In this document: one piece after another, positions 13,601 to 18,553 of the stretch
Layout of the letters: each line of letters begins with the position of its first letter
How positions within the stretch are numbered: the stretch's first letter is position 1
Origin: Candidatus Methylomirabilota bacterium
Lineage (GTDB): Bacteria; Methylomirabilota; Methylomirabilia; Methylomirabilales; Methylomirabilaceae
Direction of reading: 5' to 3'
NCBI GenBank assembly: GCA_028869615.1
Contig: JAGWRQ010000014.1
Coordinates: 1 to 18,553 of the forward strand
Length of the DNA: 18,553 nt
Program-made: the position numbers and the translations under genes
Notes under the pieces: model-generated
Database searches by the model: none
Told to the model about the DNA's origin: nothing
What the model saw: the letters and a program-made list of their open reading frames with translations, nothing else

Positions 13601-13678
13601 TCCATATCATGCTGATCCGAACACGGCTTCATATTGGGTACTTCTAGCGGCTTTAGCACGCTAGAGACTGTAGTATCA

Positions 13679-13798
13679 TCATCCTCGGATGGCCTGCGAG
13701 GAGCACCCGAGCCGCGTGGCCACCTCTGCCAGCGCGTGTTGCCCTTGCATGAGCTGGTGGATGAGATGATGCTTCAGGCTGCATCTGTCCTGACCCAT
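13679..13798 (-). pseudogene. Transposase-type helix-turn-helix remnant
   Basis: A short minus-strand frame from ATG 13798 gives 39 residues that include LIHQLMQGQHALAEVATRL and GCSSQAIR, which look like the N-terminal helix-turn-helix of an insertion-sequence transposase. It then hits two stops and nothing recognisable follows, so it is at best a fragment. The rest of 13600-13890 shows no gene that I can support. Confidence 0.4.
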
Positions 13799-13897
13799 CG
13801 ACACCTTCTTGTTGTGGGAGATAGCCTACAAGTGGAGACAGGCCAGCGCCCAAGGAAGGTGGGCAATTCAGATGTTGAACAACAACGCACGATTGCC

Positions 13898-13926
13898 TTG
13901 ACAATGAAAATGCATAAAGATATAAC
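13898..13926 (+). promoter_or_regulatory. Near-perfect sigma70-type promoter
   Basis: TTGACA (13898-13903), exactly 17 bases, then TATAAC (13921-13926). Predicted transcription start near 13933, about 15 bases before the structured RNA candidate. It is one of the two strongest promoters in the window and drives no ORF directly. Confidence 0.75.
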
Positions 13927-13947
13927 GAGCTTATTTGTAAAGACATA

Positions 13948-14042
13948 GCCCGACTGTACCCCCCCGTAATTCATGGGGGAAGAAACGAAAAGAGGTCAGG
14001 GTAAAGCCGATGAACAAGCAGGCACCGAATTACCTGTCGGGC
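13948..14042 (+). ncRNA. Pseudoknotted structured RNA candidate (riboswitch or small RNA)
   Basis: A closing stem GCCCGAC (13948-13954)/GTCGGGC (14036-14042) surrounds a compact fold. A C-run (13959-13965) pairs with GGGGG (13975-13979), and the hairpin loop GTAATTC (13966-13972) is perfectly complementary to GAATTAC (14027-14033), which would form a pseudoknot. A third stem is GGT/ACC (13994-13996/14024-14026) plus GCC/GGC (14006-14008/14021-14023), with purine-rich joins. A promoter lies upstream and a strong terminator begins 8 bases after the closing stem, so the transcript would be about 160 bases. I could not match it to a known riboswitch or ribozyme. It could control the 14256 gene by attenuation or be a free small RNA. 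Confidence 0.6.
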
Positions 14043-14049
14043 CAAACGA

Positions 14050-14093
14050 ACGCCTTCTGGGACCGTGAGCACCCAGAGGGCGTTTTTGTTTTT
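14050..14093 (+). terminator. Strong Rho-independent terminator
   Basis: A stem of 11 pairs or more (from CGCCTTCTGGG at 14051-14061 to CCCAGAGGGCG at 14072-14082, one G-T pair) has a 10-base loop and is followed directly by TTTTTGTTTTT (14083-14093). It ends the transcript of the structured RNA candidate and lies 160 bp before the next gene. Confidence 0.9.
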
Positions 14094-14243
14094 GTATAAA
14101 AAATTTTCCCGAGTTGTAAGGTTTGACTCCAATCTAGCGTTATTTGAAGCGACGGGTACAAAGCAGAGTCCTTAGCAGAATCGAAAACGAATCGAAACCC
14201 GACCGTAGTTCACTAGACGGGCCTCTCGGTGAAGTTTTTTGTT
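14094..14243. other. Leader region before the repeat-domain protein
   Basis: No ORF or clear promoter. It contains a short direct repeat (AATCGAAA twice, around 14179-14198) and several short complementary pieces (CGGGT/ACCCG, CCCG/CGGG) that could fold weakly. Whether the next gene is read from the 13898 promoter through the terminator or from a promoter here is unclear. Confidence 0.3.
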
Positions 14244-14250
14244 GAGGAGG
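14244..14250 (+). promoter_or_regulatory. Ribosome binding site that decides a TTG start
   Basis: GAGGAGG, five bases before TTG 14256. Starting there gives a protein that begins directly with a clean signal peptide (MKRFMMLVLVGIV), whereas the in-frame GTG at 14229 lies upstream of this site and adds acidic residues in front. Confidence 0.7.
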
Positions 14251-14255
14251 GTAAG

Positions 14256-16883
14256 TTGAAAAGATTTATGATGCTCGTGCTGGTGGGAATTGTCTGCCTT
14301 CTTGCCTCGAATGGTGCGGTCCTAGCCGCTAACGTCAAGTATGTGGTGGTTGTTGACAATAGGAACTACACGGTAGAGGAGGCCGAGGGCAAGGGTGAGC
14401 TGTTTCGGGATGACCACGGTAACCCGGTGACAGATCTCAACCTTGCCAGGAGGATTGCCCAGATAGCCTTTGTCAAAGAAAGTATTCTGGCAAAAAAGCT
14501 ATCTGGCCTTCAATCTGCTATTGCCAGCATTGATACCCTCGTGAGAACGCAAGAAGGCATTGGTTACTTGGGGGCGGGTCGAGACTTGCTGGCCAGAACC
14601 TTTGCGGACTGCATAGTTGGCGGTGGAATTGCCGGCTGCTTGGTCCCAACTACCCCTATCCAAATCCTTGTAGACACTGTTAAAGATCCCAAAGTCTACT
14701 TGGGATCGGCCGCGAGGGCAATGGCGAAGGATGCGCAAGGTCGCTATCAACGGATATTGACAGAGGCGGAGCGCTTTCTCCAGGCTCACAAACCGCTTGA
14801 TGACAAAACTGCTGGTGCTATATATGCCGACTACGTTCAGGCGGTTCGTGAGCATTACCCCTCCACCGCTCTGCTCATTGCTCTGAGCGGGCTGAATGAA
14901 CGGTTGTACGATGACCTGTTGAAAATGGGGAAGGTGGCCAGCGACGAATTCTTGAGGCGTAGCGTTGGAAGTGTTGGTCTGATTGCAACGACTGACGAGG
15001 TTAGAAGAGCTCTCCAGTATGGGCAGAAGTGGATCGAGTCCACTCCTCACGTACGGCAATTTAATCAGGACCTCCAGGATCAGGCGCGAGTGGTCGATCA
15101 ACTTGCTGCGCAGATTGCTCAGCGCGCTACGCGGGCCGTACACCTTGCTACCGCTGCATTACAGACTCCACAGCCACAGCCATTACCGGTTCAGTCTACG
15201 CCCCAGGCTCCCGCGCCCCTGGACGCCGCCCAGTTCGTGGCGGACGTCACGATCCCGGACGGGACTACGCTACAGCCAGGCCAGAGCTTCACGAAGACCT
15301 GGCGTCTGCGGAACACCGGGGGCACCACGTGGGGGAGCGGCTACCGCTTGGGCTTCGTGAGTGGAGCCGCCCTCAGTGCACCTAACAGCGTTCCCGTGCC
15401 CGTCATGGCCCCGGGCAGCACTGCCGACGTCAGCGTGAACATGGTCGCCCCCAGCGCCGCCGGGCCGTACCAGAGTTCTTGGCAGCTCACGAACGCGCAA
15501 GGCGGGCGTTTCGGTCAGACGATCTGGGTGAAGGTCGCGGTGAGTACGCCCGCGGCGGTCCCGTCGCTCACGCCGACCCCTGTGCCGCCTCCATCCCCCA
15601 GTCCGGTGATCAGTGGCCTCAGCCCTAACCCAGTGTCCGGTACAAACACTCGACAGACGCTCACCCTGCTGGGGAGCGGCTTCGCGCCTGGCCTCACCGT
15701 TACGCTCCGTACGGGCGGCCAGAGTTACCCCATCCCGCCAGACCGGACAACGGTGATGAGCGCCACCCAGGTCCAGATTCTCGCGGATGTCACGACCCAG
15801 GCGGCCACCTGGACCGCGCAGGTCACCAACCCTGGCGGGGCCAGCTCGAATCCCTTCAGTTTCACGGTGAGCGCGCCCCCGGCCGCTCCACCGCCCCCGG
15901 CCCCAACTCCTGCCCACATGGACGCCGCCCAGTTCGTTGCGGACGTCACGATCCCCGATGGGACCACGCTGAGCCCCGGCCAGACCTTCACGAAGACCTG
16001 GCGCCTCCGGAACACCGGGACCACCATCTGGAGCAGCGGCTACCGCTTGGCCTTGGTGAGCGGGGCCTCTCTGGGCGCCCCTAGCACCGTCGCGGTGCCT
16101 CCTACAGCTCCCGGCAACACTGCCGACGTGAGCGTGCCCATGACCGCCCCTAGCGGTGCAGGGCCGTACCAAGGGACCTGGCAGTTGATGAACGCGCAGG
16201 GCACCCGCTTCGGCCAGACGATCTGGGTGAAGGTCGCGGTGAGTACGCCTGCTGCGGCGCCACCGCCACCCACGGCCGCCAATCAGGCGCCCACGCTGCT
16301 GAAAACCTTCTCCACCGGGGCCAGTGTGATGGTCGGGCAGGGCTATGCCCTGACCTTCACCGCAACGGACCCCGACGCAAATCTGGCCAATATCGACGTG
16401 AACTGGAATGATGGAAGCGCGGTGGAGCACAAGACCGTGAGCGGGAACCAGGCAAGTGTGACGTTCACGCGCACGTTCCCCACCGCCCGGACCGTTAACT
16501 GGTCTGCGACCGCCTACGACACCAAGGGGGCGTCCAGCCCGATGCTGGGCGGCTCCTTTACCGTGACGGCTGTGCCCGTGCCGCAGTCGCCACCACCGGC
16601 CTCCCCGCGGATCACCGGCCTCAGCCCCAACCCCGTCACGGGGGCCAACGTCCGGCAGGCGCTCACCCTGCTCGGGAGCGGCTTCGTACCTGGCCTCACC
16701 GTCACGCTTCGTACCGGTGGCCAGAGCTACCCGATCCCGCCGGAGCGGACGACGGTCGTCAGTCCGACCCAGGTTCAGGTGCTCGTCGATGTCACGACTA
16801 CCTCTGCCGCCTGGACTGCGCAGGTCACCAACCCCGGGGGGGCGGGATCGAATTTGTTCTACTTCAATGTGAAAGGAAAGTAG
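14256..16883 (+). CDS. Exported protein with duplicated NBR1-Ig-like and TIG-like domains
   Basis: About 875 residues from the TTG start. A signal peptide ends near AVLA (residue 24), followed by a mostly helical region (25-300) I do not recognise and a Pro/Gln linker. The rest is modular: NBR1-type Ig-like domain (about 322-432; DAAQFVADVTIPDGT, KTWRLRNTG, FGQTIWVKVAV), TIG/IPT-like domain (450-540; GLSPNPVSG, LLGSGFAPGLTVTL), second NBR1-like domain (555-666), PKD/cadherin-like domain (677-771; DPDANLANIDVNWNDGS), second TIG-like domain (786-874). Such domains mediate adhesion or protein contacts; no catalytic domain is visible. The repeat half is visibly more GC-rich than the N-terminal half. 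Probable partner: the lipoprotein encoded 95 bp downstream. Function unknown. Confidence 0.85.
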   Translation: MKRFMMLVLVGIVCLLASNGAVLAANVKYVVVVDNRNYTVEEAEGKGELFRDDHGNPVTDLNLARRIAQIAFVKESILAKKLSGLQSAIASIDTLVRTQEGIGYLGAGRDLLARTFADCIVGGGIAGCLVPTTPIQILVDTVKDPKVYLGSAARAMAKDAQGRYQRILTEAERFLQAHKPLDDKTAGAIYADYVQAVREHYPSTALLIALSGLNERLYDDLLKMGKVASDEFLRRSVGSVGLIATTDEVRRALQYGQKWIESTPHVRQFNQDLQDQARVVDQLAAQIAQRATRAVHLATAALQTPQPQPLPVQSTPQAPAPLDAAQFVADVTIPDGTTLQPGQSFTKTWRLRNTGGTTWGSGYRLGFVSGAALSAPNSVPVPVMAPGSTADVSVNMVAPSAAGPYQSSWQLTNAQGGRFGQTIWVKVAVSTPAAVPSLTPTPVPPPSPSPVISGLSPNPVSGTNTRQTLTLLGSGFAPGLTVTLRTGGQSYPIPPDRTTVMSATQVQILADVTTQAATWTAQVTNPGGASSNPFSFTVSAPPAAPPPPAPTPAHMDAAQFVADVTIPDGTTLSPGQTFTKTWRLRNTGTTIWSSGYRLALVSGASLGAPSTVAVPPTAPGNTADVSVPMTAPSGAGPYQGTWQLMNAQGTRFGQTIWVKVAVSTPAAAPPPPTAANQAPTLLKTFSTGASVMVGQGYALTFTATDPDANLANIDVNWNDGSAVEHKTVSGNQASVTFTRTFPTARTVNWSATAYDTKGASSPMLGGSFTVTAVPVPQSPPPASPRITGLSPNPVTGANVRQALTLLGSGFVPGLTVTLRTGGQSYPIPPERTTVVSPTQVQVLVDVTTTSAAWTAQVTNPGGAGSNLFYFNVKGK
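15219..16252 (+). repeat. Duplicated NBR1-like domain coding repeat (units 15219-15552 and 15919-16252)
   Basis: Two units of about 334 bp lie 700 bp apart inside one gene and are highly similar as DNA, including long identical runs such as GACGCCGCCCAGTTCGT at each start and CAGACGATCTGGGTGAAGGT near each end. Silent differences are few enough to suggest a recent duplication or continuing gene conversion. Confidence 0.8.
15602..16872 (+). repeat. Duplicated TIG-like domain coding repeat (units 15602-15872 and 16612-16872)
   Basis: Both units encode a TIG/IPT-like domain beginning GLSPNPV and including LRTGGQSYPIPP and WTAQVTNPGGA. The DNA is close as well as the protein. The unit order NBR1-TIG-NBR1-PKD-TIG suggests duplication of a two-domain block with later insertion of the PKD-like domain. 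Confidence 0.75.
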
Positions 16884-16978
16884 CTATTGAGTCGCGTATT
16901 GAATCGTTTGAGATGGTGGGGTGCGCTGGTGGGTGGCAGCGAGGTTCTCGTCCGAGAGCCGACTTGAAGGAGGAAGCA

Positions 16979-18553
16979 ATGTTCCAGGTCAAACTAGCCC
17001 GATGTCTCAGTCTTCTTGTGCCGTTGTTTCTGGCAGCATGCGCGACATCTGGAGTCAGCCCCACGGGGCTGTATGGTGACCCAGTGCAGTGCGTCGAGGG
17101 ACCGCGCCAAACACTGGATTGCCGGGGTGCCGCCGAGCAGTATAAACGTGATATTCGGGCGGACTTCAGCTACGTCGGGCAGGCAACGGCTGGCGTTGGC
17201 CTCTCGACCACGAAATTGATGGAGGCCGACGCCCTGAGCACCGACCTGAAGGAACAGTATTTTCATCTCTGTGCCCAATATAACGCCTGTCTGATCTCCC
17301 GACAGGAGTTTGTTGAGAAGACCGAGCGGCTTCGGGAGATCCAGGCGCGCGTCCGCAATGCCGCGTACGGGTATTTTGCAGGCCAGAACATCCAAATCAA
17401 TCCACCCCCCTATGGCGTACCACCACCGATGGGAGGGTACCCTCCGCCGGGAGGTGTCAGCTTCCCCCCACCACCGCAGAGCGGCATGCCTCAACCCTCA
17501 GGGAGTGTTAGCGCTCCCGCTTCTCCCGCGCCAACCCCCGGTGGCGTGGTTGGCAGCACACCCTCGCAGCAGGACCGCGTAGACGCGATTCTAAACATCC
17601 TGCGGGAGGGGAACCGCCTCCTGAAAGAGAAAGGCCCCACGCCACCAGGTTCATCGCTCCCGGATCAGATAAAGTCGGCCAGCGTTGCACCCCTACCGGA
17701 ATCGGCTGCACTAGGCATCGCCTCTACGCCACGTCCGGAGCAGGACCTCGACGGCAGCCTGCGGTCCATGCTCGTGTCCTTGAAGGAGACAATTGCCCAA
17801 CAGCATCCCACGCTCGCCGTCGGGCGGACGGTAGTCGGCAACATCACAGAGGAAGGTCAGACCTGGGCCAGCCCGTTGGGCGCGTTCTTACAGGAGCGCG
17901 TGGCGAGACTCGTGGAAGAAGAGAGTATCTTCAAGCCGGTCCTTGCGTTACGGACGCGTGGGATCACCATTACGCAGGTAGCAGCCGCGGACCATCCGAA
18001 CGACCCGAAGTCACTTGGGGCTCTCTATCAGGCCGATATGGCCATCATGGGTCGATTCAAGCCCGTCGGCGAACAGGTCGAGGTGCAGCTTGCTGCGTTG
18101 GACGGGGCCGGAACAAGTGAACTGGCGAAAGTCACGGGGGTCATCTCGGCCCTCGCAATCCCGAGTACGTTACCAGTGACCGCGACCAATGCGGCAGAGA
18201 CCGGCCAGCTCCTCCAATCATTGAATCAGTTGGGCCAGCAATCGGGGAACGGCAGGAGAGTCGAGATCACGACCAATCGCCCCGGCCTGGGGACTTCATT
18301 CAAACGCGGCGAAGAGATCAGATACTTCGTGACCTCCTCCCTGGATGGCTATCTCTATCTCTTTCATGTTGATGCCGAGGGAGGGATCAAACGGGTTTTC
18401 CCGAATATGTACCAGCGAGAGACGCGCATCGAGGCCGGCGCATGGGTGCAGGTGCCCGGACCGGGAGCACCCTTCAAGTTCGAGGCATCGACACCCTATG
18501 GCCTCGAGACCACCTTTGCGATTGTTACCGACGCAATGCTCGATGAGCGCGAA
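16979..18553 (+). CDS. DUF4384-like lipoprotein, 3' end beyond the window
   Basis: The frame is open from ATG 16979 (GAAGGAGG upstream) to the window end, 525 residues visible, so the C-terminus is missing. A type II signal peptide has the lipobox LAAC (Cys21), so it should be lipid-anchored. Residues 22-125 hold several Cys and a helical segment. About 140-190 is Pro/Gly-rich (YGVPPPMGGYPPPGG) and likely a flexible linker. About 257-395 resembles CsgG/FlgO-type periplasmic domains (AVGRTVVGNITEEGQTWASP, LGAFLQERVARLV). From about 426 a DUF4384-like domain appears (DGYLYLFHVDAEGGIKRVFP, then AGAWVQVPGP and PYGLETTFAIVT). Probably surface or periplasmic and linked to the preceding exported protein; biochemical role unknown. 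Confidence 0.82.
   Translation, partial: MFQVKLARCLSLLVPLFLAACATSGVSPTGLYGDPVQCVEGPRQTLDCRGAAEQYKRDIRADFSYVGQATAGVGLSTTKLMEADALSTDLKEQYFHLCAQYNACLISRQEFVEKTERLREIQARVRNAAYGYFAGQNIQINPPPYGVPPPMGGYPPPGGVSFPPPPQSGMPQPSGSVSAPASPAPTPGGVVGSTPSQQDRVDAILNILREGNRLLKEKGPTPPGSSLPDQIKSASVAPLPESAALGIASTPRPEQDLDGSLRSMLVSLKETIAQQHPTLAVGRTVVGNITEEGQTWASPLGAFLQERVARLVEEESIFKPVLALRTRGITITQVAAADHPNDPKSLGALYQADMAIMGRFKPVGEQVEVQLAALDGAGTSELAKVTGVISALAIPSTLPVTATNAAETGQLLQSLNQLGQQSGNGRRVEITTNRPGLGTSFKRGEEIRYFVTSSLDGYLYLFHVDAEGGIKRVFPNMYQRETRIEAGAWVQVPGPGAPFKFEASTPYGLETTFAIVTDAMLDERE

Follow-up and report, generated by a model that had tools for sequence, protein, structure and literature searches.

Genomic context of the locus

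The window, the whole stretch of 18,553 nucleotides analysed here, corresponds to contig C143 of a 2.06-Mb genome. Its transhydrogenase gene is found at 90–95% identity in 10 of 14 further genomes from the genus, and its TonB receptor gene at 78% identity or more in 12 of these 14 (partially in two); the contig is native. Similarity to the genus extends 3′ of the TonB gene up to about position 13640 (13641 at most). A search of 14 stretches from relatives (E ≤ 1) returned no match at 13642–14255, with one stretch (L076) ending too early and another (L079) matchless throughout. Positions 13641–18553 constitute a segment not common to the 14 relative stretches compared 3′ of the TonB gene, and at its end lies an incomplete reading frame encoding a DUF4384 domain. 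On the minus strand at 13650–13830, a frame (KHHLIHQLMQGQHALAEVATRLGCSSQA) looks by eye like part of a helix-turn-helix and may be left over from a transposase; the open frames in this interval gave no Pfam match.

On the plus strand, the segment carries a promoter, an RNA element and a terminator (13898–14094), followed by a gene at 14256–16883 that encodes a secreted protein carrying two NBR1-type Ig domains. The TTG start codon of the gene at 14256 was inferred from GAGGAGGG, and the N-terminus of the protein appears signal-peptide-like by eye. RNA and gene thus lie on the same strand, with 161 nt between the terminator and the start codon. None of the genus's 14 other genomes contains the N-terminal part of the gene. 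Since neither this part nor the RNA region has matches in relatives, both fall in the segment not seen there. Among the best 7996 candidates, the protein has one relative (P0001, annotated as candidate division NC10 bacterium), identical to it over the first 320 residues. P0001 has a CHAP domain and the window copy has none; the gene at 14256–16883 also contains two pairs of internal repeats of approximately 300 bases each.

The sequence separating terminator and gene (14098–14245) shows no unusual folding stability (z −0.11) and no Rfam score better than E 1.7. Small inverted repeats occur at 14140–14230 (AATCG-AAAA-CGAAT, and CGGGT with ACCCG). A consensus promoter scan listed no site between terminator and gene; its rule overlooked the promoter at 13898 as well, and the downstream gene may have its own promoter that such a scan misses.

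Promoter, terminator and predicted core fold

The σ70-type promoter TTGACA-17-TATAAC spans 13898–13926 on the plus strand, with the −35 element TTGACA at 13898–13903, a 17-nt spacer and the −10 element TATAAC at 13921–13926, and matches 11 of the 12 consensus bases. Two sites of this quality occur in the window, compared with a mean of 0 in 20 dinucleotide shuffles of the whole window, and such a site arose in 0.7% of 300 shuffled versions of the intergenic region. The promoter reported in the preliminary description is therefore present and exceeds chance expectation in shuffles, even though the stock consensus scan, whose rule requires T at −10 position 6, did not list it. The textbook terminator reported alongside it was likewise recovered: in the predicted fold, 14048–14061 pairs with 14072–14085 in a 14-pair hairpin followed by a T-rich tail (14048–14094, plus strand), with z −5.3 and none of 200 shuffles equally stable. 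An own promoter and an intrinsic terminator are thus found within one intergenic region, as in bacterial intergenic sRNAs, and with all the listed elements in place the parts form the compact promoter-to-terminator unit that had been described.

The whole element, core plus terminator, folds with z −4.5, while the core without the terminator reaches z −2.5 (4 of 500 shuffles as stable; z −2.6 and 2 of 200 in a repeat run). Much of the whole-element signal is therefore due to the terminator, and a compact core fold is plausible, by prediction moderately beyond chance, though not overwhelming. The 7-bp closing stem P1 noted earlier is confirmed in the predicted fold on the plus strand, with GCCCGAC at 13948–13954 facing GTCGGGC at 14036–14042. 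The P2 hairpin of the most stable fold (13961–13979, plus strand) pairs CCCCCGU at 13961–13967 with AUGGGGG at 13973–13979, and the third internal stem of the preliminary description corresponds to predicted stem P3 (14000–14026, plus strand), in which GGU and GCC (14000–14008) pair with GGCACC (14021–14026).

The P2 loop supplies the 5′ arm of a candidate pseudoknot: GTAATTC at 13966–13972 is the exact complement of GAATTAC at 14027–14033 (both plus strand), the 3′ arm, whose last two bases are also paired in the nested fold. A 7-nt exact loop complement of this kind arose in 9 of 1000 core shuffles. The perfect complementarity claimed for the loop of this C/G hairpin thus holds, but the pseudoknot does not belong to the most stable fold. 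Specifically, its 3′ arm overlaps ACCU at 14032–14035, the partner of AGGU at 13993–13996 in the nested fold, its 5′ arm uses the top two pairs of P2, and forcing both arms to be unpaired costs 5.6 kcal/mol before any pseudoknot gain. We regard the pseudoknot as a candidate sensor fold and leave it unclaimed, because the core yielded no homologue and hence no covariation.

The element had been described as lacking an ORF, which is not strictly true. A 29-codon reading frame on the plus strand crosses core and terminator, from ATG 14010 to TAA 14097–14099, with AGGG 8 nt 5′ of the ATG. It is probably a product of chance: by our own arithmetic, a run of sense codons this long has a chance of approximately 25%, and used as a protein query against 95 genomes the frame gave a best non-self E of 0.096 and no convincing relative.

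When the RNA was folded to position 14060 only, the 5′ arm of the terminator stayed unpaired, and neither an antiterminator nor a mutually exclusive pairing was visible in this fold. The earlier proposal of a riboswitch with a terminator platform is weakened by this free 5′ arm. A genuine metabolite riboswitch representing a new class, with the pseudoknotted core as its putative aptamer, is in our estimate the least probable of the accounts we considered. The rarity of the loop complement among shuffles, the junction-like layout and the lack of an Rfam match argue for it, but the missing antiterminator is the main argument against a switch, the pseudoknot would displace part of the most stable fold at the cost given above, and the core yielded no homologue from which comparative support could come.

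The same absence of a visible antiterminator suits a stand-alone sRNA of approximately 160 nt, always terminated, that would act in trans by base pairing or protein binding and be unrelated to the downstream gene. Its own promoter, the strong terminator and the 161 nt separating the latter from the gene also fit such an RNA, whereas its position before a same-strand gene does not, and a trans-acting RNA without a relative in the genus would be very young. We consider this sRNA possible rather than probable, and the main rival, next after an attenuated leader of the downstream gene.

Searches for known RNA classes and for homologues of the core

Rfam 15 at gathering scores returned no match over the whole window, and a permissive search of 13850–14150 (E ≤ 10) gave three sub-threshold scores only, the highest being that of the terminator against ctRNA_pGA1, in line with the earlier statement that no known class could be recognised. 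The faint echo of the SAM-I core mentioned at the same time finds no support, as no SAM family was among the matches in this interval even at E ≤ 10. In the literature collection searched, no paper combines Methylomirabilis and riboswitch, and the top-listed titles for Methylomirabilis small or noncoding RNA and for NC10 structured RNA or riboswitch held nothing relevant. Neither Methylomirabilis nor NC10 is named in the main text of PMC8632094. According to that paper, for many orphan intergenic regions of this sort no homologues exist, at times not even in closely related organisms.

No credible relative of the core was detected in the window's own 2.06-Mb genome, nor by blastn in 99 genomes including it. 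Recurrent 19-nt blastn matches in the genus appear, from 12 stretches inspected by eye, to be coincidental similarities within coding sequence, and many other matches comprised the terminator arm only. With R2, a single-sequence covariance model of the window RNA, 95 genomes of the class gave one non-self match at E ≤ 5, a 17.4-bit hit inside an opposite-strand 418-codon open frame, which we rejected. In 388 genomes of mixed kinship, R2 gave nine non-self matches at E ≤ 0.5, the best at 24.6 bits (E 0.01 per genome). This is no more than chance yields for that many genomes, and among eight alignments inspected by eye none was seen retaining both pseudoknot arms. An exact-pattern search of viral contigs found none; in the GTDB species genomes it found three matches, judged coding by eye, two of which read ETKRGQGTF, a motif of GntR regulators. 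No match was obtained by blastn against phages and plasmids. Several of the collections searched may lack the records of the window itself or of its closest kin.

These results bear on whether the element could be a chance or decayed assembly, with promoter, inverted repeats and terminator left in a young, poorly conserved segment and a fold without function. The moderate core signal (z −2.5), the end of similarity to the genus near 13640 and a core found nowhere else are consistent with such an origin. We nevertheless judge it unlikely, as three features packed into 200 nt, namely the 11/12 promoter, the compact fold and the strong terminator, are individually uncommon.

A family of leader RNAs in the same order

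The window terminator matched several places in two genomes of the same order, G020 and G029, by blastn, and upstream of these matches lie copies of one RNA element. The element runs from a promoter through the motif ATGNNNCCGGGGTNNNCATAG, two small hairpins and GGCGCA to a GC-rich terminator, the loop of which is conserved (in family f3 as CGGAGCACG); the characteristic motif is CCGGGG...CATAG with GGCGCA. Of 20 stretches fetched for the terminator similarity, 16 were run against Rfam 15, with no match up to E 1. For the alignment A3 we retained 14 of the 20, omitting L088, L089, L094, L098, L103 and L104, where the match was confined to the terminator or to coding sequence, and from these 14 copies we built the covariance model R3.

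At E ≤ 0.01, R3 matched at least 163 places, distributed over 14 of the 95 class genomes searched, a count that includes opposite-strand matches of one hairpin (two of the eight in G006). All seven genomes of family f3 carry between 6 and at least 40 matches (at least 40 in G020 and G029), two of the four of f4 carry one each, and 5 of the 14 other genomes of the window's genus carry one to eight. In a sample of 388 genomes, the 14 that were matched at E ≤ 0.001 all belong to the window's order. The loci of the family are L085–L146 and L151–L227, from G020, G029, G026, G016, G023, G031, G033, G024 and G017 and, in the window's genus, G001, G002, G006, G011 and G013. A promoter with at least 9 of 12 consensus matches precedes 54 of 97 elements, compared with 4% of shuffled upstream sequences, and 47 of these 54 promoters end 20–35 nt before the element.

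In 102 distinct rows, the R3 structure showed 66 cells in which both partners of a pair had changed, spread across three helices, where shuffles gave 21 (sd 3.5; 0 of 500), counts that come from an alignment fitted to the structure, are inflated by related sequences and include four opposite-strand or partial rows; with partners slid by three columns, 37 such cells were still obtained. A de-novo scan of a MAFFT alignment of 98 elements (A6, 104 rows minus four opposite-strand or partial and two duplicate rows) failed to bring out the two core hairpins. A mutual-information scan of the 98 elements was dominated by relatedness, many of its top pairs not being standard base pairs, and RNAalifold on the 98-element alignment yielded part of the terminator only; both outcomes count against a well-resolved family core. 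The core GGCG, or a similar sequence, can pair with the 5′ arm of the terminator in a helix of at least four pairs in 84 of 92 elements (a count without a null), and this predicted pairing is a possible antiterminator in the family. A conserved five-codon mini-ORF (M-x-P-G-stop) was also considered; as the four-residue peptide can be read in 36 of 98 elements only, we treated the motif as RNA.

A same-strand open frame of at least 60 codons starts within 350 nt downstream of 32 of 39 elements (again without a null), and among the remainder five or more lie at contig ends. Pfam matched 13 of 20 such downstream frames and none of the other seven. The matched products include PAS/sigma-54 activators, PAS sensor proteins (one with an ethylene-receptor-like N-terminus) and a PhoU-type protein, as well as cupins and metallo-beta-lactamase-fold, peroxiredoxin-like, Kelch, beta-helix and TPR proteins. 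Two PAS/sigma-54 activators, one from f3 (L136:572–1960) and one from the window's genus (L138:3–1262), are orthologous, with 69% identity, and an element precedes each. In addition, a sensor gene encoding an ETR1_N ethylene-receptor-like N-terminus and PAS (L149:3–1457, L228–L231) occurs in four genomes of the window's genus, G005, G002, G012 and G008, and its leader is a member of the family that can be aligned in all four genomes over the available sequence. Taken together, the family looks like an undescribed riboswitch-type leader class.

Relationship of the window RNA to the family

The window RNA resembles a member of the family in layout, with its own promoter and its placement before a same-strand gene, but membership is not supported by the core tests. 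HMMs of the family core found nothing at the window locus (L147), which also has no R3 match at E ≤ 1e-4. R3 scored 17.8 bits there, the best value in the genome, while the hairpin alone gave 13.2 on the other strand and an unrelated hairpin of the same genome, beside a tRNA-like sequence (by eye), reached 17.2 bits, level with the window RNA. For a terminator of the family type the score in the window was 12.9 bits (E 0.0019), against the 17.2 bits that the unrelated hairpin reaches with R3, and the terminator similarity is not independent, because the window RNA was the query that led to the family. As its core does not match, and the CCGGGG...CATAG motif with GGCGCA is unrecognisable in it, we have not filed the window RNA in the family. 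It might be a strongly diverged, enlarged member with a remodelled core, whose hairpin loop acquired a pseudoknot partner, which we think doubtful. If true, it would place the window RNA in a new riboswitch-like class with tens of copies per genome in part of the order, controlling sensor and secreted-protein genes.

Interpretation

The most probable account, held tentatively, is that the window RNA is a lineage-specific, promoter-driven, intrinsically terminated 5′ leader of approximately 160 nt belonging to the secreted Ig-like protein gene. Transcription would begin near 13932, RNA polymerase would make the P1-closed core and normally stop at the intrinsic terminator at about 14094, and read-through would allow expression of the gene. 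We infer that promoter, core, terminator and gene form one cis-acting attenuated unit, in which the core fold is a predicted one. Such a leader is favoured by a promoter and terminator beyond chance and a core moderately so, by the same-strand position 161 nt upstream of the gene, by the joint presence of RNA and gene in a segment absent from the compared relatives, and by the precedent, in the same genus and order, of promoter–hairpins–terminator leaders before genes. Against it stand the lack of a visible antiterminator and of any homologue in our searches.

Taken alone, the window RNA adds one to the number of orphan structured leaders or sRNAs. What makes it valuable is that it led to a large family of NC10 leaders that match nothing in Rfam 15 (16 loci), and this family merits follow-up more than the window RNA itself. 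The function of the family is directly testable, as it offers many copies, paired changes above shuffled controls and orthologous downstream genes in different families of the order.

Comparison with known systems

Among known RNAs, ctRNA_pGA1 (RF00236) is similar in its terminator hairpin only (19.8 bits, compared with a gathering score of 45), and the window RNA differs from it in having no adjacent plasmid replication gene. The likeness to the SAM-I riboswitch is the short string resemblance pointed out earlier, to which the SAM covariance models gave no match. The guanidine-IV and HMP-PP riboswitches described in PMC8632094 are likewise short leaders using a terminator-like stem 5′ of a gene, from which the window RNA differs in having no Rfam match; the same source describes terminator stems with conserved loop bases that serve as aptamers. 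The NC10 leader family and the window RNA both have a promoter, a short structured leader and a GC-rich terminator, the sequences of which appear similar, and both lie, within the same genus, upstream of genes, some of which encode secreted proteins.
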